Below are positions 43,217 to 60,125 of a DNA stretch of 64,000 bases, one piece after another. The DNA is from Anaerorhabdus furcosa. GTDB lineage: Bacteria > Bacillota_I > Bacilli_A > Erysipelotrichales > Erysipelotrichaceae. A program made the position numbers and the translations under genes. The notes below the pieces were generated by a model that was not told where the DNA came from, made no database searches, and saw nothing but the letters and a program-made list of their open reading frames with translations. The DNA is taken from the NCBI RefSeq assembly GCF_900167375.1, contig NZ_FUWY01000001.1, forward strand, positions 62,001-126,000, read 5' to 3'. Each line of letters opens with the position of its first letter. Positions within the stretch are counted from its first letter, which is position 1.

Positions 43217-44387
43217 CATGTGTTTCAATTGTTGGTAAATGATTTACATCATCTACAGCATTCAATGATTTTTCATAGTAATAAACTCTAGCATTTTTAC
43301 TTGGCACCTTACTATAAAATTTCTTTTGAATACGATCAATTACGACAAATATATCTTCTAAATTCTTAACTTCCACTAATAAACCAAAGTTATTTGTTAC
43401 AAAACTTGTATAAATATCAGTTCGTCTTAAAGTATCCAATATAACATTTTCAAAAGTTTCATGAAGATGAGTTTGTTTTCCCTTAATATCTTTTAGTTCA
43501 AATACTATAATGTGATAATTTGCTTTATCTCTTCTAGATTTTCTTACATAGACTTGATATAACTTTTTAAATGTAAGTTGCGAACAAAATAATGGTCCAT
43601 TTGCAATAAGATCTTCTTCAAATTCCTTCGGAATTTCTTCAATATGTACTGCTTTTGCAGTTTGTTGATCTCCCATAAACAAGCTGCGAATGTTATCACC
43701 TAATGGGATACCTAGTTCTTCATTGAATTTTCTAGACATCTTTTCAAAGTAAGTAAGTGCCTTGTTATATTCTCTAGTTTCAATCAATGCTTTACAATAA
43801 TATAAAATAAGAGTTTCCGAGAAAGGATCTTTATCTAATGATTTTCTACAAACTTCAATTAATGTTTTATAATCTGGGTCTTTCTTTTCAAGTTCGTCTG
43901 AACAAACAGTAACAATCATCTTATTGAATAGTTCATTAAAGTATTCACGAATTGATAAAATCCATTCATCACTAAATTCTGCAAGAAATTGTCCATAATT
44001 TGCATCAACATTTCCTAATAAGCTTAAATCTCTAGATTCAGTAATCTTTTTATAATCATTTTCATAAGCATCCAAATCAACTTTTACCTCTAAAGCAGGA
44101 TTCAACATATATCCCATTTTAGAAGTAATAATCCAATCATACTCACATATTTTTGCCAATTCATTTCTTAATCTAAATATCGCATATTTAATAGCACTAT
44201 TTGGGTTTTCACTTTCTGGCCAAAATGAATCAATTAACATATCTTTCGATATAATGCGATTTCTATGATATACAAAATAGGCTAATAAGCTTGATAGTTG
44301 TCTACCCAATACATCAGCAGCATCGATCGTACTCCCTGATATTTCGATATAGAATTTCCCCAATGTTTTAAATTCTATTGTATTCAT
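43212..44387 (-). CDS. BTAD transcriptional regulator with degenerate GGDEF-like C-terminus
   Basis: 391 residues. Residues 1-95 form an OmpR/SARP-type winged helix (IEFKTLGKFYIEISG, NSAIKYAIFRLRNELA). Residues ~100-245 form a bacterial transcriptional activation domain of TPR-like helices. Residues ~265-375 follow the order of a GGDEF domain (LTFKKLY, HIIVFELKDIKG, LDTLRRTDIYTSFVTNNFGLLVEV) but the GGDEF signature is replaced by TNNFG, so it cannot make cyclic di-GMP and may bind it or only hold fold. It overlaps pilT by 4 bases and ends the filament operon. Confidence 0.82.
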   Translation of the reverse strand: MNTIEFKTLGKFYIEISGSTIDAADVLGRQLSSLLAYFVYHRNRIISKDMLIDSFWPESENPNSAIKYAIFRLRNELAKICEYDWIITSKMGYMLNPALEVKVDLDAYENDYKKITESRDLSLLGNVDANYGQFLAEFSDEWILSIREYFNELFNKMIVTVCSDELEKKDPDYKTLIEVCRKSLDKDPFSETLILYYCKALIETREYNKALTYFEKMSRKFNEELGIPLGDNIRSLFMGDQQTAKAVHIEEIPKEFEEDLIANGPLFCSQLTFKKLYQVYVRKSRRDKANYHIIVFELKDIKGKQTHLHETFENVILDTLRRTDIYTSFVTNNFGLLVEVKNLEDIFVVIDRIQKKFYSKVPSKNARVYYYEKSLNAVDDVNHLPTIETHE

Positions 44388-45448
44388 AACTTACCTATCT
44401 TCTTCTCCATAATTTCAGTATTCACTGCATAAGTTATCGCAGTTTCTTTAGAGATCTTACCTTCCTTAAATAACGTATAAATTGATTCATCCATGGATAT
44501 CATTCCATCTTGTTTTCCAGTTGCAATATAATTGTCGATTTGATAGGTCTTACCATCTCTTATTTGGGTTCGTATTGCATTACTTGATAGTAAGATTTCA
44601 AAAGCTGGAATTAATTCATCATTTACTGTTGGTAATAATTGTTGAGAAACAATTGCTTGTAACACAGTAGAAAGTTGAATTTGAATTTGTCGTTGTTGTT
44701 CTGGTGGAAAAACATCAATAATACGATTTATTGTTTCAGCCGCCCCTAATGTATGGAGTGTTGATAGCACTAAATGTCCAGTTTCTGCTGCTGATAATGC
44801 AATTTTTATTGTTTCATAATCTCGCATTTCTCCAACCAAGATTACATCTGGAGCTTGACGCAATGTTGCTCGAAGTGCTTGAGCATAATCTCTTGCATCA
44901 TTTCCAATTTCTCTTTGTGAAACAATTGATTGTTTATGTCGATGTAAATATTCAATAGGATCTTCGATTGTAACAATATGTGCTTTTCTTGTTTTATTTA
45001 TTTCATCAATTATACAAGCAAGCGTTGTTGATTTTCCACAGCCCGCACTACCTGTAACTAGAACCAAACCTTTTAGCAATTTTGAAAATTGAATCACCGT
45101 ACTTGGAATTGATAATTCCGCAGGATTTGGTAAATCTGGTTTTACAAATCTTAGCACTGCAGATAGTGATCCACGTTGAAAATAGACACTTGCTCTAAAT
45201 CTTCCTAAGCCAGAAATAGAAAAAGAGAAATCGTCATCACCCATTTCATTTACACGATCAAACGATCTATTCTTATTTAGACTATAGATTTCATCAATAA
45301 TTGTACGCGCCTCATCTGGACGTATTACATTTGTGTCCATTTGTGTCACACTACCATTTATTTTAAATGATATTGGGCTTCCCGCAATGATAAAAATATC
45401 CGATACATTTTTTTCTACAGCTTTTTGAAGAATCTCTTGAATCAACAT
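44384..45448 (-). CDS. pilT: PilT-like type IV pilus retraction ATPase
   Basis: 354 residues. Walker A G133SAGCGKST, Asp box VTIEDPIEY (159-167), Walker B VILVGEMRD (202-210), His box GHLVLSTLH (224-232) and the retraction-type AIRTQIRDGK motif (291-300) are intact. PilT hexamers pull the pilus back. The start at 45448 follows TGGGAGG; a longer in-frame start lies in the previous gene. It is the only secretion-type ATPase of the cluster: no PilB/GspE is in this window. Confidence 0.93.
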   Translation of the reverse strand: MLIQEILQKAVEKNVSDIFIIAGSPISFKINGSVTQMDTNVIRPDEARTIIDEIYSLNKNRSFDRVNEMGDDDFSFSISGLGRFRASVYFQRGSLSAVLRFVKPDLPNPAELSIPSTVIQFSKLLKGLVLVTGSAGCGKSTTLACIIDEINKTRKAHIVTIEDPIEYLHRHKQSIVSQREIGNDARDYAQALRATLRQAPDVILVGEMRDYETIKIALSAAETGHLVLSTLHTLGAAETINRIIDVFPPEQQRQIQIQLSTVLQAIVSQQLLPTVNDELIPAFEILLSSNAIRTQIRDGKTYQIDNYIATGKQDGMISMDESIYTLFKEGKISKETAITYAVNTEIMEKKIGKL

Positions 45449-45461
45449 AGCATTCCTCCCA

Positions 45462-45899
45462 TTAGAAATTAAAACCTTTTTGTGAATAATCACCCTCATT
45501 ATTAGTAACCACTATCCATGATAGAATTTCACTATTCATCTCTTCTACATTTAAATTCAATTTTACTTCAAGACGAGCATTATCATTTATCATTATAGTA
45601 TAATCGACCGTATTATCCAATAAATTTATATTATCCAATGTATTTGTTAGTATTATTTTTGCTTCATCCATGCTATTTGACCTTGCTAGTATTTGATCAA
45701 TCTCATAGCGAACTTCCATTGCTTTTGTATCCGCATCATAATTCTCTGTTAAAATCGCTATCGATTTATTTACACGGTTTAAACTTGTTTCAGCTTGTTT
45801 ATAACTAAGAGTAGAAAAAGATACAAATACTAAAATAACAAATACGATTAAAATTGATGAATAACCTACAGATAACCCAAAGTTCTTCGAATTACGCAT
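45462..45899 (-). CDS. One-TM filament-operon protein (type IV pilus accessory candidate)
   Basis: 145 residues. An N-terminal hydrophobic helix (about residues 11-31: SVGYSSILIVFVILVFVSF) is followed by a helical segment, then a ~100-residue extracellular part rich in Asn and Asp. No canonical pilin leader or Glu5 is seen. AGGAGG precedes the ATG at 45899. It lies 1 base after the next upstream gene and 13 bases before pilT. A minor pilin or assembly factor is possible; the family is unknown to me. Confidence 0.65.
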   Translation of the reverse strand: MRNSKNFGLSVGYSSILIVFVILVFVSFSTLSYKQAETSLNRVNKSIAILTENYDADTKAMEVRYEIDQILARSNSMDEAKIILTNTLDNINLLDNTVDYTIMINDNARLEVKLNLNVEEMNSEILSWIVVTNNEGDYSQKGFNF

Positions 45900-45900
45900 T

Positions 45901-46272
45901 TTAGTTACCTCCTGACATAACATCAAATTCAATCAATACATTCTCATAGTATGAAATTTGAATATGATGCATCATATAATCTAATTCAAGATTTTCTGAT
46001 GTAACTTGAACCACATAATCATCTATGTTGGTCATATATTGGTTTTCAGCAATCTTATTGTATCCTTCAAGGTTACCATCATACTTTTTCATTGATTCCG
46101 CAACACTTTCACCAATTAACATTGCCTTGTTTTTTTGAATTGTTTCTTGTGAATATTGATTACTCTTAACAAAAAAATTAACACAAACAATACTTGAAAG
46201 CGCAAAGAAAAGAATTCCCCACAAAATTTCAATTAAGAATATATAAAATTTTGATTTTCTTTCAACTTTCAT
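45901..46272 (-). CDS. Pilin-like small protein with LIEIL core
   Basis: 123 residues. After 11 mostly polar residues comes FLIEILWGILFFALSSIVCVN (residues ~12-32), strongly like the hydrophobic start of type IV pilins (FTLIEVLVALAIL), including the conserved glutamate. The usual glycine before the cleavage site is missing. A helix then a short beta part follow. Between the 46275 gene (2 bases) and the 45899 gene (1 base), so it is cotranscribed. Confidence 0.65.
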   Translation of the reverse strand: MKVERKSKFYIFLIEILWGILFFALSSIVCVNFFVKSNQYSQETIQKNKAMLIGESVAESMKKYDGNLEGYNKIAENQYMTNIDDYVVQVTSENLELDYMMHHIQISYYENVLIEFDVMSGGN

Positions 46273-46274
46273 AT

Positions 46275-46718
46275 TTACCTCATCACGATCTTCATATCAT
46301 AACTTTGATTATTTATATTAATTTGATAATTTAATTCATTGTCTATTAACTCAAAATCAATAGAATCTACACTCGCAATCAATTCACCACTTGCCAATTT
46401 AAACTCAGTATCAGGTAATGAAACCATCTCTTTTAATTCCCCTTGATAAGCGTAAATATATTTTGAATAATCATCATAGGAGATGACTAAACACTCTACA
46501 CCACCAACTTTTTGAATACTCACTTGATTTTTATTTGATTGTCTTATGGAAGTGGCAATGAATGAAATTGGAATTCTTTGATCCTCCGCTTGATTTGTAT
46601 TGTTGATAACTGACTGATAACATTTCCCACCTAATAAGAGCAAGTAAAAACAACTTACAACAACACATGCAAGTAAAGTTAAAGTCCATAGAATTTCAAT
46701 AACTTTTGTTTTTTTCAT
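46275..46718 (-). CDS. Pilin-like small protein with IEILW core, DUF4860-like
   Basis: 147 residues. VIEILWTLTLLACVVVSCFYLLLLGG sits at residues ~6-31, so a glutamate lies near the front of the hydrophobic helix as in pilins, but the protein has almost no leader. The rest is a beta-rich head (YDDYSKYIYAYQGELKEM). It resembles what is labelled DUF4860, from memory. The next gene starts 2 bases on. Confidence 0.62.
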   Translation of the reverse strand: MKKTKVIEILWTLTLLACVVVSCFYLLLLGGKCYQSVINNTNQAEDQRIPISFIATSIRQSNKNQVSIQKVGGVECLVISYDDYSKYIYAYQGELKEMVSLPDTEFKLASGELIASVDSIDFELIDNELNYQININNQSYDMKIVMR

Positions 46719-46722
46719 ATTT

Positions 46723-47028
46723 TTACCTTTGATATACTTTTATTTCTGGTTTGATGTTCTCTCCAATTACTTCGTAAAATACGTGGTATTTTTGCTCATC
46801 AATGTAGACTCCATAATTTTGTTGCAAATACTCTAATGATGATGGATAAATTCCCTCCATGCTATAGCACGAAATAGCAGCTCGTCCCAATGCTTCTTCT
46901 AATCGTTTGGCTCCTTCTTGATTCAACTTACTTTGTAGTTGTGTTAATGAAATAATCATCCATCCCGCAACAACAAAGAATATTACCAAGTAGAGAATAC
47001 GACTTACTTCTCTTCTCTTCTTAATCAT
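46723..47028 (-). CDS. Short pilin-like protein
   Basis: 101 residues. A basic start (KKRREVSR) then a helix ILYLVIFFVVAGWMIISL and an amphipathic segment RLEEALGRAAISCYSMEGIYPSSLEYL, close to the Ala/Cys-Tyr, Gly-x-Tyr-Pro pattern of pseudopilins such as ComGC. There is no glutamate at position five. It lies 2 bases after the platform gene. Confidence 0.62.
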   Translation of the reverse strand: MIKKRREVSRILYLVIFFVVAGWMIISLTQLQSKLNQEGAKRLEEALGRAAISCYSMEGIYPSSLEYLQQNYGVYIDEQKYHVFYEVIGENIKPEIKVYQR

Positions 47029-47030
47029 AA

Positions 47031-48062
47031 TTACCCCAAACTACTCATGATACTCATTAATGGTAACATAACTGATAATAAGATAATTCCTACAATGAAT
47101 ACACAACTCATCATCATGATTGGTTCAATCGCATTTAAGAATTTATTAATCGAATTTGAAGATTCTATTTCATATTCTCTAGCTACCTTTGACATAGTTT
47201 CATCTAATTTACCAGACTTTAACCCCAAACGAAGCATTTTCGTGTATACCGGTTTTAGAATAGTTGAGTTAACAATTACATCCATTGTATCTTGACCCTC
47301 TTCAATCAGTTTACTACATTCATTAATTTTCTTTATCATATCTGATTGATGAATAAGATTATGTAAAGATGCAAAGGATTCTTTCAAGTTCATTCCACTA
47401 TTTATCAATAGACTAAGTGCAAAAGCCACTTTGCTTGTTTCTATGTTAATCATTAATTTTTTCGTAAGTGGAAAAGCAGTTAAGAATTCTGTAATCGCAT
47501 TATTTTTGAATTTTACTTTGTAATATAAATAGACAATGAAAATAATTACCACAACAATTAAGAGTGCAATAAAACCATACTGAGCTAAAAACTGACCGAC
47601 TTGCATTAGAACTAATGAGGTAGCGGATAAGTCAACACCCATACTGTTGAGCACTTCTCTGAAGATAGGTAATATTTTAATAACCAAGATTCCCATTAGT
47701 AAAATCATCATGACTAATAAAATAGTTGGATAAAACAGTGCATCTTTCACTTTATTTTGCATTGAATCAATTCGATTATAATAGATAGCACATTGATTCA
47801 TAACTTGATCTAAATATCCTGTTTTCTCCCCAACTTGGATCATTTCTAAAAAATATGAATCAAAGATTCCTACTGAGTTTGCAGCATGGTAGAAACTCTC
47901 TCCAACAGATATCTCTTCTTTCATCTTTAATACAGCTTGTTTAAATTCATGATTATCAATTTCTTCAACTACTGCTTCTAAACCTTCTTGAAGTGTCAAT
48001 CCCGAATCTAAAATCATACTTAATTGTTCACAAAATAATGATGTTTCATGGTATGTAATCAT
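47031..48062 (-). CDS. Type II secretion/type IV pilus platform protein (PilC/GspF)
   Basis: 343 residues with two GspF-type cytoplasmic repeats (FCEQLSMILDSGLTLQEGLE at about 9-28; VAFALSLLINSGMNLKESFA at about 209-228) and three transmembrane helices (about 103-125, 150-176 and 315-338). It anchors the ATPase and pilin assembly in the membrane. GGAGGAAGTC precedes the ATG. First clear pilus gene of the operon, 12 bases after the transglutaminase stop. Confidence 0.9.
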   Translation of the reverse strand: MITYHETSLFCEQLSMILDSGLTLQEGLEAVVEEIDNHEFKQAVLKMKEEISVGESFYHAANSVGIFDSYFLEMIQVGEKTGYLDQVMNQCAIYYNRIDSMQNKVKDALFYPTILLVMMILLMGILVIKILPIFREVLNSMGVDLSATSLVLMQVGQFLAQYGFIALLIVVVIIFIVYLYYKVKFKNNAITEFLTAFPLTKKLMINIETSKVAFALSLLINSGMNLKESFASLHNLIHQSDMIKKINECSKLIEEGQDTMDVIVNSTILKPVYTKMLRLGLKSGKLDETMSKVAREYEIESSNSINKFLNAIEPIMMMSCVFIVGIILLSVMLPLMSIMSSLG

Positions 48063-48074
48063 ATGACTTCCTCC

Positions 48075-48986
48075 TCAATAATTATATTTCGACTCATAAG
48101 AGCCTTTGTAGTTTTGTTCTGCAGCTGCAAATGTTGGATCCATTAACTTCCATTCTTCTGAATTAAAGTAAATATTGGGATCTACCCACCCCACATCATG
48201 AATGTATACTTCCACCCACGCATGATATCCTTCTTCAACATACCCTGTAATTAATTTTGTTGGGATTTGCTGTACACGCAACATACACGTCATGAGTGCT
48301 GCATAATCGAAACAAATTCCTGATTTGATCTCCAATGTTTCATCGATAATTGGAACAACAAACTTATTTTGGACTTCTTCAACTTTATCCCAATCATAAT
48401 CAATATTTTCTACAATCCAAGTGTAAATGCGATAAACTCGCTCTAGTTCAGTTGTCGCACCTTCACAAAGTTCAAATGACTTACTTATTGCAGCAGTTTG
48501 TAAATCATAGTCAATAATCTGATTTGGATAGAGATAAGGATAGTTAGGATCATCCAGTTTAACATCAATTTCTTGTCCTAAAACAAATGCATACGTATTA
48601 TCTTTAACACTCTCTCTAACCTGAATATCATATTTTCCATCTCCCATATTTAATGGGTAGGAAATGTATTCATTATCTTTTGATAGATCATAATTGTAGG
48701 TTTCATCATCTTTTATAATTTGTACTTTTATTCGCTTATGATCATCTTTTAGAGTCTTTACCATGATGTACCCTAGGTTTGAATTCGAATAATCGATACT
48801 AACTAAATCATTTTCCATTACCAAAATACCAGGAGATTCTGGTATTTTAATATCTTCTTGAGTAGGGATTTTTACTTCTTCTGATTGCTCGATAATTGGA
48901 TATTTAGCTTTGTCATTACTTGGGTTAGTTTGTGAACATCCAACTAATAATAAGAGTAAAGTCACCAAACATTTAATTAACTTCAT
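48075..48986 (-). CDS. Transglutaminase-domain lipoprotein
   Basis: 303 residues. Signal with lipobox LLVGC (Cys15). C-terminal transglutaminase-like domain with the Cys-His-Asp triad: SGICFDYAALM, GYHAWVEVY and WVDPN. Members can be proteases, amidases or cross-linkers, and some are inactive. It heads the filament operon, so a role in surface display or filament processing is inferred. The start at 48986 follows AGGTGG; a longer in-frame form adds ten residues before the signal. Confidence 0.82.
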   Translation of the reverse strand: MKLIKCLVTLLLLLVGCSQTNPSNDKAKYPIIEQSEEVKIPTQEDIKIPESPGILVMENDLVSIDYSNSNLGYIMVKTLKDDHKRIKVQIIKDDETYNYDLSKDNEYISYPLNMGDGKYDIQVRESVKDNTYAFVLGQEIDVKLDDPNYPYLYPNQIIDYDLQTAAISKSFELCEGATTELERVYRIYTWIVENIDYDWDKVEEVQNKFVVPIIDETLEIKSGICFDYAALMTCMLRVQQIPTKLITGYVEEGYHAWVEVYIHDVGWVDPNIYFNSEEWKLMDPTFAAAEQNYKGSYESKYNY

Positions 48987-49040
48987 GGCACCACCTATAT
49001 TACTAATTATAAACAATTTTCTGTTATAATACTATGTATA

Positions 49041-50250: not shown

Positions 50251-53200
50251 CTAATTAGATTTTCTTCTCTTAGCTATAAGAACAATTACTCCTCCAATGA
50301 TAATAATCCCAATTGGAATTAATATCCAAGAATAGTCTATCGTTGATTTCTCTTCTTTAACGATTAAATTGGTATCGCATGTAAAGAGAATTGTCATTGG
50401 TTCATTAATCTTAAGCTCAATTATATCATCGGTTTGTTTAAACTGAGTTAGTTCAATTAATGATGAGTCATTAATTTTCCATATTCTAAATTCTTCATAA
50501 CTAGGTAATATCTTTGAAATATCAATCTGTAGATTAATGGAATATTGATCATTAAAACTTGTAACTGATTGCCACTCTTCATCGTCAAGTCGAACATTGA
50601 ATTCAACTTCCAAGACATTGCATATTTCCATATCTTCTTCTTGCAACTGATTATTGAAATTTTGCATCATTTCTACTTCTTGGTAATCCTTTGCTTCAAT
50701 TTCAATCATGACTTCAGCTTTCGAGCCTTTTGCAATTTTATTTAATTGTTCTTGACTAAATAAATCATTAATCAAATCTTCACCATTGTCTATTGATGTA
50801 TTCTTCAAATTACCACGATTCATCAGTAACATAATCTCGCCTTGATCCAATTCGATTTTCAAATCATCTTTTACTTCAATTACTTGATTTGGATCATTGA
50901 AATAGAATGCACCTCCTTGTATTGAACCCATACGTGTTTTATTACTTGCATTCGGTGTAGTTGTAGGTGTTGCAGTACTTCCCGATGGTGTTACTGTTGG
51001 TTTTTTTGTTGGTGCTAAAGTAGGATTTGGTGTTGGTGTTGATGTTGGTTCTGTTGTTGGGATTACTGTCGGTGTTGGCGTATTCGCTAAGATTGTTAAC
51101 GTATTTGTTCCAATTACTGGTTCATAATCCTCTTTCTCTACTTTCCAATTGATTGAATAAGTTCCTGGTTCAGTATAATAAGCTCTAGTTATTGTACTAT
51201 CTTCAGGTGCTAAAATATCTATAGTATGTGAGTTTCCATCATATTTTACTTCAACATCTTTTCCTTCTACCGCATCATTCATGTTAGCGTATGTAACGGT
51301 TAATACACCTGTTCCATAAGCAAATGAATAATCATTTCCTGGATTTCCACCAGAAGGAGTTAATTGATATGTCATTCCTGCATTCCAATCATTAATTGAA
51401 ACAGTTGGTTTCACATAACCATTGATAGTTGATGGTGTCTCATTATTCACAAAACCACTTACACTTACTTCAAATTTTGGAGTTCCATTGAACACTACAG
51501 TTTCATTAATATAGTTTGCGTTTAGAACTGCTTTTGCAATTGTATAGTTTTTCACTGTACTCGCTGGTAAATCATAATTATCTTTATCATTCCCTTTAAT
51601 ATCATTCACAATTACATTGTAAGATCCAGAATGAGTTCCTTTATCACCTAACACTTCAAGATATGCATCATTAGATTCTACAAAATCTATTGATGTAGGA
51701 GTAAATTGATGTTCTGTTCCATCATATGATAGACTTTCATTATTATTCCATAACAACGAAATTTCTTTCTTATGAATTTGTGCTGTTGAAACTTGATTTA
51801 ATAATTCCGTGGTACTCAATGTATAGTTATCTTTATCAACACCATTTAATTGAATATTATTTACATGAACTGTTTTATTTTCACCCGCATTTTTATCTGC
51901 AAAGTTAATTACTCCTGATGCCTTAACTTCATCCACTGAAACTACTCCTGTTAAAGATATAGAACCCTTTGTAGTAGTTGAGCCATCATATGTTTTATCA
52001 TCAACAGTGAATACAGTAGGGTTTACTGTTTTCCTTCCAACAGTTATCACTGCACTTCCCATTAAATCTTCATAATTGTTTTTAGTCACTTTGTAATACA
52101 CTGTAATTGAACCAGCATTTTTCAAAGTTGGAGAATCTACTAAATCATAAGTTCCATCTGTAGTACCATACATAATCAGTGCATCAGATGGTATTTGAGT
52201 ATTTAGTCCATGATTCTCACCTGTATAAACATCGTTATAGCCAGTAATTAATACTGATAATGTTGCGTTTTGAATAACGAGATTACCACTTTGATAAGTA
52301 AATTCATAATCCGCTGCACTTCCATCTTGAGGGGTAAGCACATAAGTTCCAACGTTTGTGTTGTTATTTATGATAACAGGTTGTAAGTAATCTAATGGCC
52401 GCTTATCTTCATCATTTGATCCTGGTTCTTCACCATTTACAAATCCTGTAACAGTTATATGGAATGTTGGATTATTTCCATAAGTAATTGTTTCGCCATC
52501 ATATTTTGCTTGCAAAGGTGCTTTACCAATTGTGTAAGTTTTTGTATTTGCTGTTGGTAATTTATAGTCTTGGTTATCAATACTTGCACTAGCACTGTAA
52601 ATTCCTGCATGAACTTGATTTCCATCTTTGGTTGTTACGTTGACTGTGTCATTTGTTATTACACCTGTTACATCTGCTACTACATTTTTTTCTAATCCGT
52701 TATAAATTAAATTCTCTGTATTTTCCCAAGATAAGGTTAACTCTTTTGGTACTATTGTATATTCTTGATTCGGATTTGATGGTAGCACATAATTATTACT
52801 ATCATCTCCATCTAAATCTACTGCAATCGCTTTGTATGTTCCAGCATGGATTCTATTACCATTGGTTACCACAACTTCAATATCATCATTTGCAATTTGA
52901 TTATCTATACTAGCCATTACATTACTTGAACTTTGATCATAAATTCGACTAGTATAATTACTCCAAACCAACGAAACTTCAAGAGGAGTAATACTTGCGG
53001 TTGTAGCCACATCATTCTTATTTGTTTCTTCTAATACATAATTTGATGATTGATTACCACTTAAAACTAAATTTTTTAAATTCACATTCTTATTTGTTGA
53101 AACATTCTTGTCAACAAATTCAATTGCTCCTTCAACACGAATATCTGCTTCATCTTTAGAAAGAACACCTATTAGTTTCAATGTGCCTGTAGTATTTACT

Positions 53201-56200
53201 GCTCCATCATAAACCTTACTATTAATAGAATCTGCTGTAGCTTCAATTTCTTTAGGTAATATTTTAATCGTTGCAATACCCATCTTATCGTTATGATTTG
53301 GTTGCTTTGCGACATATGATATTTCATATGTTCCAACATCAGCAAATTCAAATTCATCACTAACCCATGGATCACTTTCAGATAAACGATATTCTATCGT
53401 TACATCTGAATCTTTCTTCACAATATCAAGTTCATGTTTTTCTCCATCATAAATACCTTCATATCCATTGATTTGAAGATCTATGTCAATTGGGTTAACT
53501 ACTAAAACACCTGAAGTATAAATAAAATCATAATTGTTTGCACTTCCATTTTTTCCAACAACTTCATACCTACCTACATTAGGTTTATTTAAGTCATTCA
53601 ATGTTGATGTAACACTTGCAACTGGTGCAACATAACCTTGGATTGCTGCATCTTCATTATTGACAAAACCTGTGACGTTAATTGCTAATTGTGGAGTTTG
53701 ACCATAAACAATATTCTCTCCACTATATTTTGCTTGAAGCTCTGCAGGAATGATTGTATAGTCTTCAGTTTCATGATTTGATTCGATGATATAGTTATCA
53801 TTTCCAGAAAGAGTTGCAGTTGCGGTATAATTTGTAACCACTTTTGAATCTGGATTACGAAGAACATTGATGTTATTTCCATTACTTACATTGATAGTTA
53901 TCGTATCACCTTCATACAATCCATTTGCAATCGCTGATACATTACTACTCTTACCATCATAAATTCTTGGATTTAAACCTGACCATGTTAATGTTATTGG
54001 TTTTGGTTTTATTTTAGCGGTAGTACTTGTTTCATTTATAAATGTGTCATCTAGTTCATAATTGTTTTGCGAATCAGATGTGAGTTGAATATTTGTAACA
54101 AGAACAGCTTTATCATCTCCAACATTTTTATCCGTAAATGCAAACTGTCCAATTGCAGTTAAATCATCACCTTGTGCTACACTATCATCAAACTTCAATG
54201 TTCCAGTAGTATTAGTTTGTTTATCATAAACTTTATCATCTACATGATTTATAGTTGCGCTGACTACTCTTTTGGTAATGGTAACAGTAATCGAACCTGT
54301 TAAATCTTCTTCATCAAAATCTTTGATATCGCTAATTTTATACCAGATTTGATGATTACCTACATTCTTATATTTTGGTACAGTTGAAGTATAAATACCA
54401 TCTTGTGTTTCACTATATGTATATTCATATTCATCATCAATACTCGTTACAATAACAGAACCTGAATGATATTCTCCATCATAAACACCTACATAATTAT
54501 TAACAGTCACTGATACATTTTCTGGTAATATCGTTAATGTTCCTGGAATATTATTAAAACTATAATTCAAGGCACTTCCACCAGTTGGTGTTATTGTGTA
54601 AGTACCGTGATTAGTCTGATTAATCGTTACTGTTGGGGCATTATAATCAGTAGCATTCTCTGCATTTTCATTATGCACGAAACCACTCACTATCACAGTT
54701 GTTGGAGGTGTAGCATTATACTCTATCGTTGCATTATATGTTGCTGTTAAAACTGCCTTGGTTATAGTAGCAGTAGTCTCTATATCATTTAATTGTGCTA
54801 CACTCAATTGATAGTTTGAATTTGGTGTATTAAATGCAATGTTGGCTACATTTACTTTTTTATTTTGTCCTGCATCTTTATTTGAAAATGTAAATGTACC
54901 TGTTGCTGTTACTGATGAGGCATCCACATCTTCAACACCACTTAATTTAAGTACTCCATTTGCAGTAGTAGTTCCATCATAGACTTTATCATTTACACTT
55001 AGGATAATTGGAGTAACTGTTTTCTTATTGATTACTACAGTTTCACTACCAATATAATCATTGTAATTTGGTTTGCTTACTTTGTAATAAACTGTATAAC
55101 TTCCCACATTTGTATATTGTGGCGATTGATTAAGTGTGTAATTTCCTGCAGTTTCACCATATAGAATGGTAGCCCCTTCTTGATCACTTGTCACTGATAC
55201 ACCATGACTCTTCGCATCATATGTTCCATTAAACCCTGTTGAATGTATTGTTAAATCCGCTTTGTTAATTGTTAATGATCCTGAAATATGAATAAATGAA
55301 TAATTATCTGCACTACCTCCTACAGGAGTAATGTTATATATCCCAACACTTGGCATACTTTGATTATCAAAGTTAGGACTGATCGTTACTGTTGGAGATA
55401 CATAATTACTAGCATTCAATATCGTTTCATTATTTACAAAACCACTCACATTCAATTCTAAATTCGGCGTAGTTCCATAAGTTATTGTTTTACTATCAAA
55501 TGATGCCGTTAATGACGCTTTAGTTATTGTATATGTGGTTGTCAAACCAATCGTTGGTAGTTTATAATTATCGCTTTTATTTCCTGCTAAACCAGTGATT
55601 GTCGCTGTATGAATACCTGCATTGGTTTGTGTATTATTCGATATTAATAAATTACATTCATCACTATCAACTAAATTCGTAATTGTTGCGGTAACATTGC
55701 TGGAGATACCATCATATACTTTAGTTGAATTATTACTCCAAGCAATAGTAATCTCTCTTGGTGAAATAGTATACCGTTGACTTAAATTAGAAGCCCCAGT
55801 CAATGTGTAATTGCTATCATTTACTCCTGTTATCATCGCTGTATGAATGCCTGTATTAGTTGCTGCATTTCCACTTATAGTAAGGGCTGGAGATTCTCCT
55901 GAAATTGCATTTGAAATAGAAGCACTTACATTACTTGCTATGCCATCATAAGATCTTGTATTTGTATTAGTCCACGTAATACCTACAACAATAGGTTTAA
56001 TATTAGCATTACCTGTTAATGATGTCGTCAAACAATTATAATTTGCTACATCACTTCCTGATAAACGAATATTTGTGATATTTACTATTTTGTTATTTTC
56101 ACTATTTTTATCTGTAAATTCAAATGTTCCATTTGCACTGACATTATCGTTTCCAATTATTCCTTCTATATTAAGAACACCACTACTTGATGTTGTTCCA

Positions 56201-59200
56201 TCATATGTTTTGGAATTGATGGATTGAACAGTAACACTAATATCTTTCGGTGTAATTACAACTTGAAATTCTCCCGTTTTATCAACATAATTATTTCTAC
56301 TAGCAACATATTGCACTGTATACGTTCCTACATTTTTGAATACTGGAACAGTTGTTCCCATATCAAAATTATTAACAGTATATCTAATTTGCTCTGCATC
56401 GTTGTTGTTAATTATTGGTCCATGTGCTAATCCATCATAGATACCTGAATAACCTTGAATATTGACATGAAGACTACCTTTTTGAATAGTTAATGATCCA
56501 GAAGTGTATGCAAATACATAATTCTTACCTGGATTTCCTCCACTTGGTGTCAATGTATAAACACCTGCATTTGTGTTTGTATTTATTACTATTGGATTAA
56601 TATATGTGTTATCGGTTGTTGCATTTTCGCCATTTACAAATCCAGTCACATTAACTTGTAAGGTTGGTAACCCTCCATAAACAATTGTTTCTCCCTGATA
56701 AGTTGCTGTTAATTCTTTTGCTGATACAGTCGCATTCACTGCCACTGAGCTTTGTATTGTTTCATACCCTGCTGCGCTAATACTATAGTAAACCTTTACG
56801 GTTCCCACATCTTTTATTTGTGGAATAGTTGGTGAAAGATTACTTGGACTTGTACCATATTGAATAACTGCCCCTGGTATTGTACTTGTTATATTGATTG
56901 CATTATGAGTTTGCCCATCATAAGTGCCAGTATATGGAGTTATTGTATAAGTTTGCGCATCCATAGCTAACACAGTATTGATACTTACAGTTATTGGATC
57001 ACTGCAAAGCATATTGGCGCCTCCATTAGTTCTCAACAAAACCGTAGTACCTTGAGCTAAATTTTCTAACTCTGTTACTGATCCTAGCCATGTTACACCA
57101 GCATCTAAACTATACATGACATTTGCGTTAATATTTTTAATCGATCCTTTGCCACTTACAGTTGTTGGTTGATTAACCGTTACTGTAGGTACACTAGCTT
57201 TCGATAAATTAATCTTTCTTATCGTACTATCTGGAATCACTCCATTCCCTGGTCTATAAATCCATACCGAAGAACCAGTAAAGTTTAATGGTATTTGAAA
57301 AGTTCCATTTATAACATTTTGACTTGTCATTGAAGTCCATGTATTTCCATTATCATAGCTTATACTTAACCCCGCAAATACTGGTGAAAGGGTATAATTC
57401 AAGCCGTTAAATTGGATGTTAGAAGGATCATATGCAGGCATAGTAACCGTTGTAGCATAATCAGTTAAGAGTTGATTATTGATGTTAGCATTTACTGTGA
57501 ATGTATCTGATGCAGTTAATGTTGTCACTGTTACTGTATAACTTCCTCTCCCATTTCCACTATCAACTAATGAGTTTGCATCCATTGCATAATACGTTCC
57601 ATTGATAGTAATACCATATTGAGATACTCCACTAGGAGCACCAACAAAATTTACTTCGAATTTTGCAGTAGCATTTATTCCATTGACTGATTGATTTAGT
57701 AATTTTACTGTTCCACTTTGCCATGTTGCATATAGCGTTACATTATTACTAATTGTAAAACTATTTGCTCCACTTTGTGTATAATCCGGAGTTCCATTTA
57801 TTCCTTTATTCACTAATGACCATCCAGTAAATGAATAGAAATTTAATGTAGGTAATGGTGTAAAAGCTACATTCACTGTGCTACTTTTTTGATAGCTTTG
57901 TGTTGCTGGAATGCTACCTGTTCCATTATTCGCATTATAAACAACAGAGTACGTAGTTGACACACCTACTGCTGTAATTAAAATATTCCCTGTTATTGCT
58001 CCACCAAATATAGTTAAACTTCCAGTGGTTGAATTATAACTGTAACTTGTTGATGGTAAAGTAATCCCACCAACAGTAATTGTGATTGTACTTGGTAATG
58101 AATAATTGGCTGCTGGAACTAGTGTACCTTTCCAATCAATATTTAAAATTGCACTTAAACTAAAGTTATTTTTTTCTGTGATATTACTACTCGAAGAAGA
58201 TAATCCTATTGTAACTTGTGCTCTTTTTATAATTAAATCTTTTTCCTTAACACTTAATCCATATTTATTTGTAGTAATAAATTTACTAGGATCTATTGTT
58301 ACTCCATCTGATGCAGTTGCTATTACTGTATCAGAAATAGTAATTGTATTGATAATTGTAATATCTGCCATATTACCTGTTAGTGCCTTATTTACCATAA
58401 AGCGAGAGTCCGATAAGCTAGCAAGATCAATACCTTTTGATGTTTTATCACCAATTACAGGATTACCACTAATTCTTAATATTTTTGTTCCCGTACCTAA
58501 TGATAAATTACCATTAGCAGTAACAGTATTTACTACTGTTCCTCCACTTATATTTATATTGATTCGTGCTGTTGTAATTCCTGTATAATTTCCTCCATAA
58601 ATCCATTGAACTGTTCCTCCAGTCATATTGATTGTTTCGGAATTTGATAAAGAAGAACTAGCTCCACCACCATAAACAGTATTTAAATTAGCACTACCAC
58701 TAATATTTATTGTTGCATTAGTCCCAGTAGCAAGTGCGCCCTTACCCCCACCAAAAACGCCTGATAGAACTGTTCCACCAGAAATATTAATAATCAAATT
58801 CCCACTCACAGAAGCAATATTGCCTCCCCCATAAATGTTATTAACAGTTCCACCCGTCATAGTAACTAATGTATCACCCGTAATTAAATTAAGGTTTCCA
58901 CCACCATAGATGTCATACCCCGATAAATCACCTGATGCCAATGCAGCAACTGAATCATCGACTAGTCCATTTCCATTTTTATCCCAATAAACATCAGTTC
59001 CGCCAGATCCATTACTAACAATAACTAACGGATTACCATTTCCATAAACAATTTTACTTAATGTATCAACTGATGGAGCCGTCAATAATAAAGCTGCCAC
59101 TTGCATAGAGTTTGTGGATTGGTATATTGTCATTAAGAATACAAAATCTGGGTTATTCTCCATTTGATCATAGACAGTGTTATCAATTGTAGCTATTTCA

Positions 59201-59640
59201 TCAACCATAGCCATAATTAAATCAAATTCTTCATTAAATGTATTTCGTTGTGTTTCATCTATTAATGTCCCATCTGTATTAATAGAAATAGGATTAATAG
59301 CTATATCATCATAAAACATCTTAAGATCTTTTATCTTCTTTTGAAGTTCAGTAATTCTACTTGATACATCATCCGTTGGTGTTGGTGATGGAGTTGTTGT
59401 CACTTCAGGACTTGTTGTTATTTCAGGCGTTGCTGTGACGTCAGGTGTAACCGTAGCATCAGGCGTAGAAAAATCACCAGGTGTTGGTGTTATTTCAGGG
59501 CTTGTGCTTACCTCTGGTGTTTCAGTTGGAATCTCTGTAACTTCAGGTGATGTTACTGGTTCTGGTGTTGTTTCTGCAATGACAGTCGATGTAGATATAC
59601 ACATTGCCATTGTTGTTATGATAGCAAAAAATCGTTTCAT
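50251..59640 (-). CDS. Giant modular MBG/YDG-type surface protein
   Basis: 3,129 residues. Order: signal peptide (1-23); Thr/Pro/Glu linker (~24-90); helical part; five repeats of TGGTVxxIYGGG, likely a beta-helix (about 58930-58440); an InlB-type repeat VVYNANNGTGSIP...TLYATW (57955-57710); Ig-like stretch; about 24 modules of four types (56964-51085), including MBG-like and YDG domains; Thr/Pro linker; a ~200-residue domain; and a final transmembrane helix ending KRRKSN. No LPxTG sortase signal. It is probably a wall-spanning adhesin-like stalk. The start is the ATG at 59640 after GAGGG; an in-frame ATG at 59694 lies in the leader hairpin. Role is inferred from architecture only. Confidence 0.9.
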   Translation of the reverse strand: MKRFFAIITTMAMCISTSTVIAETTPEPVTSPEVTEIPTETPEVSTSPEITPTPGDFSTPDATVTPDVTATPEITTSPEVTTTPSPTPTDDVSSRITELQKKIKDLKMFYDDIAINPISINTDGTLIDETQRNTFNEEFDLIMAMVDEIATIDNTVYDQMENNPDFVFLMTIYQSTNSMQVAALLLTAPSVDTLSKIVYGNGNPLVIVSNGSGGTDVYWDKNGNGLVDDSVAALASGDLSGYDIYGGGNLNLITGDTLVTMTGGTVNNIYGGGNIASVSGNLIINISGGTVLSGVFGGGKGALATGTNATINISGSANLNTVYGGGASSSLSNSETINMTGGTVQWIYGGNYTGITTARININISGGTVVNTVTANGNLSLGTGTKILRISGNPVIGDKTSKGIDLASLSDSRFMVNKALTGNMADITIINTITISDTVIATASDGVTIDPSKFITTNKYGLSVKEKDLIIKRAQVTIGLSSSSSNITEKNNFSLSAILNIDWKGTLVPAANYSLPSTITITVGGITLPSTSYSYNSTTGSLTIFGGAITGNILITAVGVSTTYSVVYNANNGTGSIPATQSYQKSSTVNVAFTPLPTLNFYSFTGWSLVNKGINGTPDYTQSGANSFTISNNVTLYATWQSGTVKLLNQSVNGINATAKFEVNFVGAPSGVSQYGITINGTYYAMDANSLVDSGNGRGSYTVTVTTLTASDTFTVNANINNQLLTDYATTVTMPAYDPSNIQFNGLNYTLSPVFAGLSISYDNGNTWTSMTSQNVINGTFQIPLNFTGSSVWIYRPGNGVIPDSTIRKINLSKASVPTVTVNQPTTVSGKGSIKNINANVMYSLDAGVTWLGSVTELENLAQGTTVLLRTNGGANMLCSDPITVSINTVLAMDAQTYTITPYTGTYDGQTHNAINITSTIPGAVIQYGTSPSNLSPTIPQIKDVGTVKVYYSISAAGYETIQSSVAVNATVSAKELTATYQGETIVYGGLPTLQVNVTGFVNGENATTDNTYINPIVINTNTNAGVYTLTPSGGNPGKNYVFAYTSGSLTIQKGSLHVNIQGYSGIYDGLAHGPIINNNDAEQIRYTVNNFDMGTTVPVFKNVGTYTVQYVASRNNYVDKTGEFQVVITPKDISVTVQSINSKTYDGTTSSSGVLNIEGIIGNDNVSANGTFEFTDKNSENNKIVNITNIRLSGSDVANYNCLTTSLTGNANIKPIVVGITWTNTNTRSYDGIASNVSASISNAISGESPALTISGNAATNTGIHTAMITGVNDSNYTLTGASNLSQRYTISPREITIAWSNNSTKVYDGISSNVTATITNLVDSDECNLLISNNTQTNAGIHTATITGLAGNKSDNYKLPTIGLTTTYTITKASLTASFDSKTITYGTTPNLELNVSGFVNNETILNASNYVSPTVTISPNFDNQSMPSVGIYNITPVGGSADNYSFIHISGSLTINKADLTIHSTGFNGTYDAKSHGVSVTSDQEGATILYGETAGNYTLNQSPQYTNVGSYTVYYKVSKPNYNDYIGSETVVINKKTVTPIILSVNDKVYDGTTTANGVLKLSGVEDVDASSVTATGTFTFSNKDAGQNKKVNVANIAFNTPNSNYQLSVAQLNDIETTATITKAVLTATYNATIEYNATPPTTVIVSGFVHNENAENATDYNAPTVTINQTNHGTYTITPTGGSALNYSFNNIPGTLTILPENVSVTVNNYVGVYDGEYHSGSVIVTSIDDEYEYTYSETQDGIYTSTVPKYKNVGNHQIWYKISDIKDFDEEDLTGSITVTITKRVVSATINHVDDKVYDKQTNTTGTLKFDDSVAQGDDLTAIGQFAFTDKNVGDDKAVLVTNIQLTSDSQNNYELDDTFINETSTTAKIKPKPITLTWSGLNPRIYDGKSSNVSAIANGLYEGDTITINVSNGNNINVLRNPDSKVVTNYTATATLSGNDNYIIESNHETEDYTIIPAELQAKYSGENIVYGQTPQLAINVTGFVNNEDAAIQGYVAPVASVTSTLNDLNKPNVGRYEVVGKNGSANNYDFIYTSGVLVVNPIDIDLQINGYEGIYDGEKHELDIVKKDSDVTIEYRLSESDPWVSDEFEFADVGTYEISYVAKQPNHNDKMGIATIKILPKEIEATADSINSKVYDGAVNTTGTLKLIGVLSKDEADIRVEGAIEFVDKNVSTNKNVNLKNLVLSGNQSSNYVLEETNKNDVATTASITPLEVSLVWSNYTSRIYDQSSSNVMASIDNQIANDDIEVVVTNGNRIHAGTYKAIAVDLDGDDSNNYVLPSNPNQEYTIVPKELTLSWENTENLIYNGLEKNVVADVTGVITNDTVNVTTKDGNQVHAGIYSASASIDNQDYKLPTANTKTYTIGKAPLQAKYDGETITYGNNPTFHITVTGFVNGEEPGSNDEDKRPLDYLQPVIINNNTNVGTYVLTPQDGSAADYEFTYQSGNLVIQNATLSVLITGYNDVYTGENHGLNTQIPSDALIMYGTTDGTYDLVDSPTLKNAGSITVYYKVTKNNYEDLMGSAVITVGRKTVNPTVFTVDDKTYDGSTTTKGSISLTGVVSVDEVKASGVINFADKNAGENKTVHVNNIQLNGVDKDNYTLSTTELLNQVSTAQIHKKEISLLWNNNESLSYDGTEHQFTPTSIDFVESNDAYLEVLGDKGTHSGSYNVIVNDIKGNDKDNYDLPASTVKNYTIAKAVLNANYINETVVFNGTPKFEVSVSGFVNNETPSTINGYVKPTVSINDWNAGMTYQLTPSGGNPGNDYSFAYGTGVLTVTYANMNDAVEGKDVEVKYDGNSHTIDILAPEDSTITRAYYTEPGTYSINWKVEKEDYEPVIGTNTLTILANTPTPTVIPTTEPTSTPTPNPTLAPTKKPTVTPSGSTATPTTTPNASNKTRMGSIQGGAFYFNDPNQVIEVKDDLKIELDQGEIMLLMNRGNLKNTSIDNGEDLINDLFSQEQLNKIAKGSKAEVMIEIEAKDYQEVEMMQNFNNQLQEEDMEICNVLEVEFNVRLDDEEWQSVTSFNDQYSINLQIDISKILPSYEEFRIWKINDSSLIELTQFKQTDDIIELKINEPMTILFTCDTNLIVKEEKSTIDYSWILIPIGIIIIGGVIVLIAKRRKSN
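51085..56964 (-). repeat. Higher-order A-C-D-B module array in the giant protein
   Basis: About 24 diverged modules of ~80 residues. Types by key residues: A, GYxGxYDGxxH; B, YGxxPxxxVxVxGFVN and LTPxGG; C, YDGTTxTxGxLxLxG; D, WSNxxxxxYDGxSSNV and AGxYxA. The order is AB, ACDDB, ACB, ACDB, ACDDB, ACDB, A. Confidence 0.75.
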
Positions 59641-59707
59641 ACTTTCCCTCGTTGGACTTGCTTCAGATAGTAAAGCCTTTCTAGTGCTGATCATTTCAGC
59701 AGCTTAT
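59641..59707 (-). promoter_or_regulatory. Leader of the giant gene with two hairpins
   Basis: TGCTGA, AATGA, TCAGCA and then GCTT with AAGC around a 9-base loop, just before the GAGGG ribosome site. Possible translational control or message-stability element. Confidence 0.45.
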
Positions 59708-60002: not shown

Positions 60003-60125
60003 TAATGCACTTAATGGTGTGTGTACCGCCTTCGAACTCATCATCTTTGATTAATCCATTGTCAAGTTTATGACTTCTTATAAATTTACAAATAATAATC
60101 AATTTAGATTTCCTAAAAATGTAGA
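59989..60125 (-). pseudogene. Probable 3' remnant of a lost gene
   Basis: A minus-strand frame of about 45 codons (DFYIFRKSKLIII..., HKLDNGLIKDDEFEGG, ending IKCIKPVSN) has no start codon and a stop in the loop of the terminator at 59975-60002. Real gene ends commonly look like this. The family is unknown; the fragment could be chance. Confidence 0.35.

Follow-up and report, generated by a model that had tools for sequence, protein, structure and literature searches.

The giant surface protein of Anaerorhabdus furcosa (3147 residues) carries a stalk in which four kinds of divergent domains alternate in a fixed order, and the protein is probably a membrane-anchored fibrillar adhesin whose heteropolymeric stalk is old and stable in length. 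The protein would belong to the well-known class of fibrillar adhesins with MBG_2/YDG stalks. All coordinates refer to the window, i.e. the whole stretch of 64,000 nucleotides that was analysed.

Architecture of the giant protein and its gene

The gene lies on the minus strand and its likely start codon is residue 19 of the listed open reading frame, which is preceded by GAGGG and followed by the signal peptide (Table 1). The region between the N-terminal linker and the stalk (residues 109–913) contains five YGG[GN]/FGGG repeats, at residues 263, 288, 314, 341 and 366, then a part that by eye resembles InlB B-repeats and, directly before the stalk, a domain that is also present in a protein of Intestinibacillus massiliensis. 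No Pfam family reached its cut-off in a scan of residues 109–913, and no known adhesive domain was recognised there. The folded parts are bordered by Thr/Pro-rich linkers. An LPXTG-type motif was not found at the C-terminus, where the LPXTATN model scored below its cut-off, and the protein ends instead in a transmembrane helix region with a basic tail (residues 3118–3144). The protein combines the size and stalk of a fibrillar adhesin (3147 residues, 24 modules including known stalk domains) with a surface anchor, formed by this helix and tail.

Terminator-like hairpins were found on both sides of the gene, at 60003–59977 and 49709–49692, by a consensus scan only, and because of them the giant gene would appear to be a single-gene unit. 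Just downstream on the minus strand (44384–49016) lie genes for a T2SSE ATPase, pilin-like proteins (one with DUF4860), T2SSF and a Transglut_core lipoprotein; an operon joining the giant gene to this pilin-like cluster was not adopted, given the terminator-like hairpin in between.

Table 1. Features of the giant surface protein gene, from the N- to the C-terminus of the protein. All modules were cut by hand at recurring motifs and classified with leave-one-out profiles; for modules the last column gives further evidence.
Feature	Position in window	Strand	Remarks
Giant surface protein gene	50251..59694	-	likely true start at residue 19, position 59640, MKRFFAIITTMAM...
Signal peptide, residues 19–40	59575..59640	-	hydropathy peak 22–40
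Thr/Pro-rich N-terminal linker	59371..59574	-	contains 18-bp DNA repeat 59390–59445
Pre-stalk N-terminal region, residues 109–913	56956..59370	-	YGGG-type repeats, InlB-B-like part, pre-stalk domain
B1	56719..56955	-	tree
A1, MBG_2 type	56479..56718	-	Pfam
B2, block 1	56248..56478	-	
C1, YDG, block 1	55993..56247	-	Pfam
D1, block 1	55759..55992	-	
D2, block 1	55519..55758	-	single-module Pfam scan
A2, block 1	55261..55518	-	
B3, block 2	55024..55260	-	single-module Pfam scan
C2, block 2 (block without D)	54757..55023	-	
A3, block 2	54523..54756	-	
B4, block 3	54271..54522	-	
C3, block 3	54004..54270	-	
D3, block 3	53746..54003	-	
A4, block 3	53491..53745	-	
B5, block 4	53254..53490	-	
C4, block 4	52984..53253	-	
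D4, block 4	52747..52983	-	
D5, block 4	52522..52746	-	
A5, block 4	52267..52521	-	Pfam
B6, block 5	52033..52266	-	
C5, block 5, best YDG match	51769..52032	-	Pfam
D6, block 5	51532..51768	-	
A6, block 5	51289..51531	-	
B7, terminal, short and divergent	51085..51288	-	
Thr/Pro-rich C-terminal linker	50938..51084	-	contains 24-bp DNA repeat 50986–51060
C-terminal membrane-proximal domain	50344..50937	-	no Pfam family above cut-off
C-terminal transmembrane anchor, then basic tail	50263..50343	-	no LPXTG-type motif

Four kinds of module in a recurring order

The array (51085–56955, minus strand) comprises 24 modules of 68–90 residues each, which read BABCDDABCABCDABCDDABCDAB from N- to C-terminus. 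Divided into blocks this is BA / BCDDA / BCA / BCDA / BCDDA / BCDA / B, with 2, 0, 1, 2 and 1 copies of D in blocks 1–5. A sequence-only reading of this DNA had described about 24 modules of types A to D between 51085 and 56964, and its string agrees with ours letter for letter once A and B are exchanged, so that its recurring unit A-C-(D)0-2-B is the B-C-(D)0-2-A of the present work. It had also taken the length of the stalk to vary by block, which is true only in the sense that the blocks within this one protein differ in length.

Hidden Markov models built without the module under test placed 24 of 24 modules in the right class, with scores of 25–100 bits for the own class and none above 18.4 bits for another. 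When the 24 modules were placed in a maximum-likelihood tree together with 15 modules from I. massiliensis, every letter formed one clade (supports B 99/99, A 96/92, D 94/85, C 91/84), and C and D clustered together (90/83). A failure of same-letter modules to cluster, named beforehand as the result that would speak against the module grammar, was seen in neither analysis. Profile comparison likewise joined C and D most closely (84% probability), followed by A and D (41%), with lower values for the remaining pairs; all four kinds are therefore probably distant homologues.

The share of orderings of the 24 letters that use only the observed transitions is 2.2e-9, a figure that describes the order and is not an independent p-value, the rule having been taken from the same string. 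Independent confirmation of the order is provided by another genome, that of I. massiliensis, in which an array protein (L038) reads BABCDABCDABCDAB.

Module families and predicted fold

In a Pfam scan of the whole protein, where both families have a cut-off of 25 bits, module A was identified as MBG_2 (PF18676; 1.3e-31, 109.4 bits, 7 stretches) and module C as YDG (PF18657; 1.8e-52, 176 bits, 8 stretches). When scanned alone, D2 reached 27 bits with YDG (cut-off 25) and 24.3 bits with MBG_2, four of the six D modules matched YDG at E≤1, and D forms its own clade beside C, which would place module D between YDG and MBG_2. Module B may be called MBG_3-like at most, as only one of its seven copies matched MBG_3 (PF18887), with 16 bits, below the cut-off of 25. 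The YDG and MBG_2 families were built from tandem repeats of such proteins (PMC8201768), and work on fibrillar adhesins uses YDG as a model of a stalk domain (PMC9210967).

The segment A5-B6-C5-D6-A6 was modelled by AlphaFold2 with five aligned blocks, and the resulting model has a mean pLDDT of 89.5 with no residue below 50 and consists almost entirely of strands, arranged in five successive modules. An earlier model of six modules was good except across the D4–D5 junction, which had been misaligned in the input. The pTM was 0.57 for the six-module model and 0.61 for the A5-B6-C5-D6-A6 model, so that the inter-domain geometry is uncertain. Structure matches to both models in the PDB were chains of Ig-like or cadherin-like domains, foremost the GhpA grappling hook protein, and also included cadherins, an RTX adhesin repeat and SraP. 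Their TM scores were low, about 0.1–0.4, as expected for flexible rods, and therefore support the fold class alone; searching the PDB by sequence yielded no relative. The modules are accordingly predicted, from these models, to be small all-beta, Ig-like domains.

It can be difficult to tell a stalk domain from an adhesive one (PMC9210967), and module B gave weak sub-threshold matches to varied beta-sandwich families, among them one putative adhesive domain. Both points would fit modules that are themselves functional binding domains and not a passive stalk, a reading that we regard as improbable, given that no ligand-binding family scored above its cut-off and that the architecture and the fold matches are typical of a rod.

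Divergence of the modules and probable stability of length

Modules of the same kind are 19–54% identical overall (A 40–54%, B 19–44%, C 34–47%, D 22–45%), and every adjacent pair is at most 45% identical. Adjacent identity is 28.0%, compared with 30.7% in shuffled orders (fraction 0.048), and this lower value may be a mere by-product of the order; neighbouring domains in large multidomain proteins are usually less than 50% identical (PMC8201768). The longest exact direct DNA repeat in the 5871 bases of the array is 14 nt, and codon shuffles give 12–19 nt, so that exact repeats are at the level of chance. The array DNA contains no repeats long enough to promote a change of length. With such low identities and no long DNA repeats, there is therefore nothing visible on which homologous recombination could act, and the length of the array is probably fixed, as argued from DNA divergence in one genome.

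These data bear directly on periscope-type proteins, in which near-identical repeats recombine and the number of blocks differs between strains, tuning the projection of the tip. Repeat proteins of this sort were the source of the MBG_2 and YDG families, and the length of CdrA, which has MBG_2 repeats, varies (PMC8201768); some MBG_2 arrays do look periscope-like, such as that of Chitinophaga (L064), with 17 A modules of 82% mean adjacent identity. The survey of periscope proteins, however, demanded a repeat identity of at least 80% (PMC8201768), far from the range found for same-kind modules here, and with exact DNA repeats at chance level we rejected, from the module identity and repeat content of the one genome of the genus that was covered, periscope-type length variation, which for this protein is very unlikely.

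Related arrays in other genomes

The I. massiliensis protein (4257 aa) is built from the same four kinds of module and shares with the giant protein the BA start, the terminal B and the pre-stalk domain (local score 100). It differs in having one D in every block, three blocks where the giant protein has five, another N-terminal region, and a C-terminus that by eye is of the surface-layer-homology type, as opposed to a transmembrane anchor. The array segments of the two proteins are 31–35% identical. Modules of the window resemble those of I. massiliensis about as closely as they resemble one another, so that the copies have diverged as far as modules of the two genera have. Identities within the window and between the two proteins are 0.45/0.43 for A, 0.29/0.29 for B, 0.40/0.36 for C and 0.33/0.35 for D; the slight excess within the window has p 0.036 for A and p 0.031 for C, and B and D show no such difference. 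Lineage-specific clades were not rejected (AU p 0.15–0.49), nor was joint expansion, and the joint module tree, the identity comparison and the topology tests did not resolve position-by-position orthology of the modules. Because of the shared order, BA start, terminal B and pre-stalk domain, we favour descent of both proteins from a common older array.

In a single pattern scan over genome contigs, A-like modules turned up in 42 loci, which range across Clostridia, Coriobacteriia, Methanomassiliicoccales archaea, Spirochaetales, Proteobacteria and Bacteroidota. Since the loci were picked for their likeness to the window's own modules, they do not form an unbiased census. In the family of the source genome itself, 20 of 273 genomes match the array. 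Matches in plasmid and phage collections were weak throughout, at 24–28% identity on plasmids and with one match of 41% over about 100 aa in a phage. Module strings were finally assigned with models from the window and I. massiliensis only, iteration over all loci having turned class D into a catch-all. Of 45 frames with at least four modules, two of which cover the same locus and overlap, most show a different order (AAAA, CCCC, CACA, CDCD, DBDB), and the full B-C-D-A cycle outside the window was found only in Intestinibacillus.

The partial orders ABC, BCD, CDA and DAB do recur in a few other frames, as they would if domain interfaces imposed the order and similar orders had converged from separately acquired modules. 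Most relatives are nevertheless ordered otherwise, showing that the modules tolerate many neighbours, and the pre-stalk domain held in common with Intestinibacillus favours descent; convergence of this kind therefore seems distinctly unlikely to us.

Several of the related loci are of interest in their own right. An uncultured Clostridia genome contains one open frame of 9332 aa with C, A and B modules (L027/L147/L148, G635:C24), and a 9750-aa frame in a second genome (G1321:C18) matches the block model. In a 2726-aa frame (L184, G1273:C1) the string BABCCCCCCCC.C.C starts with BABC as in the window and continues with C only, as if the C module alone had expanded. The 17 A modules of Chitinophaga silvatica are consecutive in a frame of 3214 aa and reach a maximum adjacent identity of 92%, and this stalk is likely to be of variable length. 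MBG_2-type modules from archaea (L024, L026, L028–L030 and L033; Methanomassiliicoccales, Methanomethylophilaceae and other Thermoplasmatales) are 53–62% identical to A1 of the window, above most bacterial ones, which suggests that gut bacteria and archaea may have exchanged such modules.

Proposed block duplication

Whole-block duplication followed by divergence, as the sequence-only reading had proposed, is the natural reading of the order. Concordance of the block trees was assessed in three ways (Mantel correlation, the joint likelihood of all 15 topologies in several phases, and lag periodicity), and only agreement between B and C emerged, at about 0.067. One topology, ((blk1,blk4),(blk2,blk5),blk3), is best for both B and C, with a joint lnL loss of 0.00; 6.7% of relabellings do equally well, and the A tree does not fit this block tree. 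The block trees are thus not significantly congruent. In an exploratory comparison, B and C had their highest mean same-kind identity at a lag of three blocks and A gave no such signal. Derivation of the D doublets from one copied BCDDA block falls 13.6 lnL units short of the unconstrained tree (AU p 0.076), whereas a local D1–D2 duplication costs no likelihood; D1 and D2 are 45% identical (support 79/87). The two doublets, at least D1/D2, therefore look more like local tandem duplications than like a copied block. The proposal of block duplication and divergence is hence borne out as to the clustering of same-letter modules and the strict order, and not by the trees, where A disagrees and the agreement of B and C is weak. 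Judging from module divergence, any block duplication would have occurred long ago.

In its simple form the proposal would confine the duplications to this lineage. The strict block order, the topology shared by B and C, the slightly higher identities of A and C within the protein and the AU values are all compatible with this. B and D, however, show no difference within and between the proteins, the A tree contradicts those of B and C, and the same order, BA start and terminal B in Intestinibacillus point to a shared older array, so that duplication in this lineage alone is possible but rather unlikely.

Discussion

We infer that the stalk of the giant protein, probably old and stable in length, would function as follows. 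The signal peptide would export the protein and the C-terminal helix would hold it in the membrane, with the N-terminal 800 residues and their YGGG repeats exposed at the tip. From there to the anchor the 24 Ig-like modules would form a rod of roughly 80–100 nm, assuming about 3.5–4 nm per module. The module kinds may be regarded as ancient and much diverged relatives of the MBG/YDG families of stalk domains, and the ordered block B-C-(D)0-2-A probably predates the divergence of the modules and most likely arose by duplication of blocks together with local duplication or loss of D. With same-kind identity under about 55% and long DNA repeats absent, recombination should no longer lengthen or shorten the array, and the alternation of unlike neighbours probably reduces misfolding between domains.

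As in the fibrillar adhesins with MBG_2/YDG stalks, e.g. CdrA, a tandem stalk lies between a distal region and an anchor, but the giant protein has four alternating divergent kinds in place of near-identical copies of one, and no recognised adhesive domain. It shares with the periscope proteins SasG, Rib and Sgo_0707 a long repeated rod and a distal N-terminal region; in those proteins, repeats that are all but identical differ in number from strain to strain, whereas the repeats of the giant protein are not near-identical and are not known to vary in number. GhpA of Aureispira (9flp), the best PDB match, is likewise a very long chain of beta-sandwich domains, but at 9–16% identity and with low TM scores the resemblance is one of fold only.

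The alternating order could itself have been selected, keeping like modules apart and thereby preventing both misfolding and recombinational change of length. We consider this doubtful; if true, the selected order would be a design opposite to that of periscope proteins, and one that persisted in distantly related gut bacteria while their anchors and tips were exchanged.

The present analysis documents a stalk of four alternating kinds in a fixed order that is common to another genus, with two kinds, B and D, that current Pfam models recognise poorly or miss entirely. It also offers, within one domain superfamily, a clear contrast between mixed stalks that are probably stable in length and uniform stalks that vary in length, and through this contrast the proposed trade-off of misfolding against variation in length becomes open to testing.
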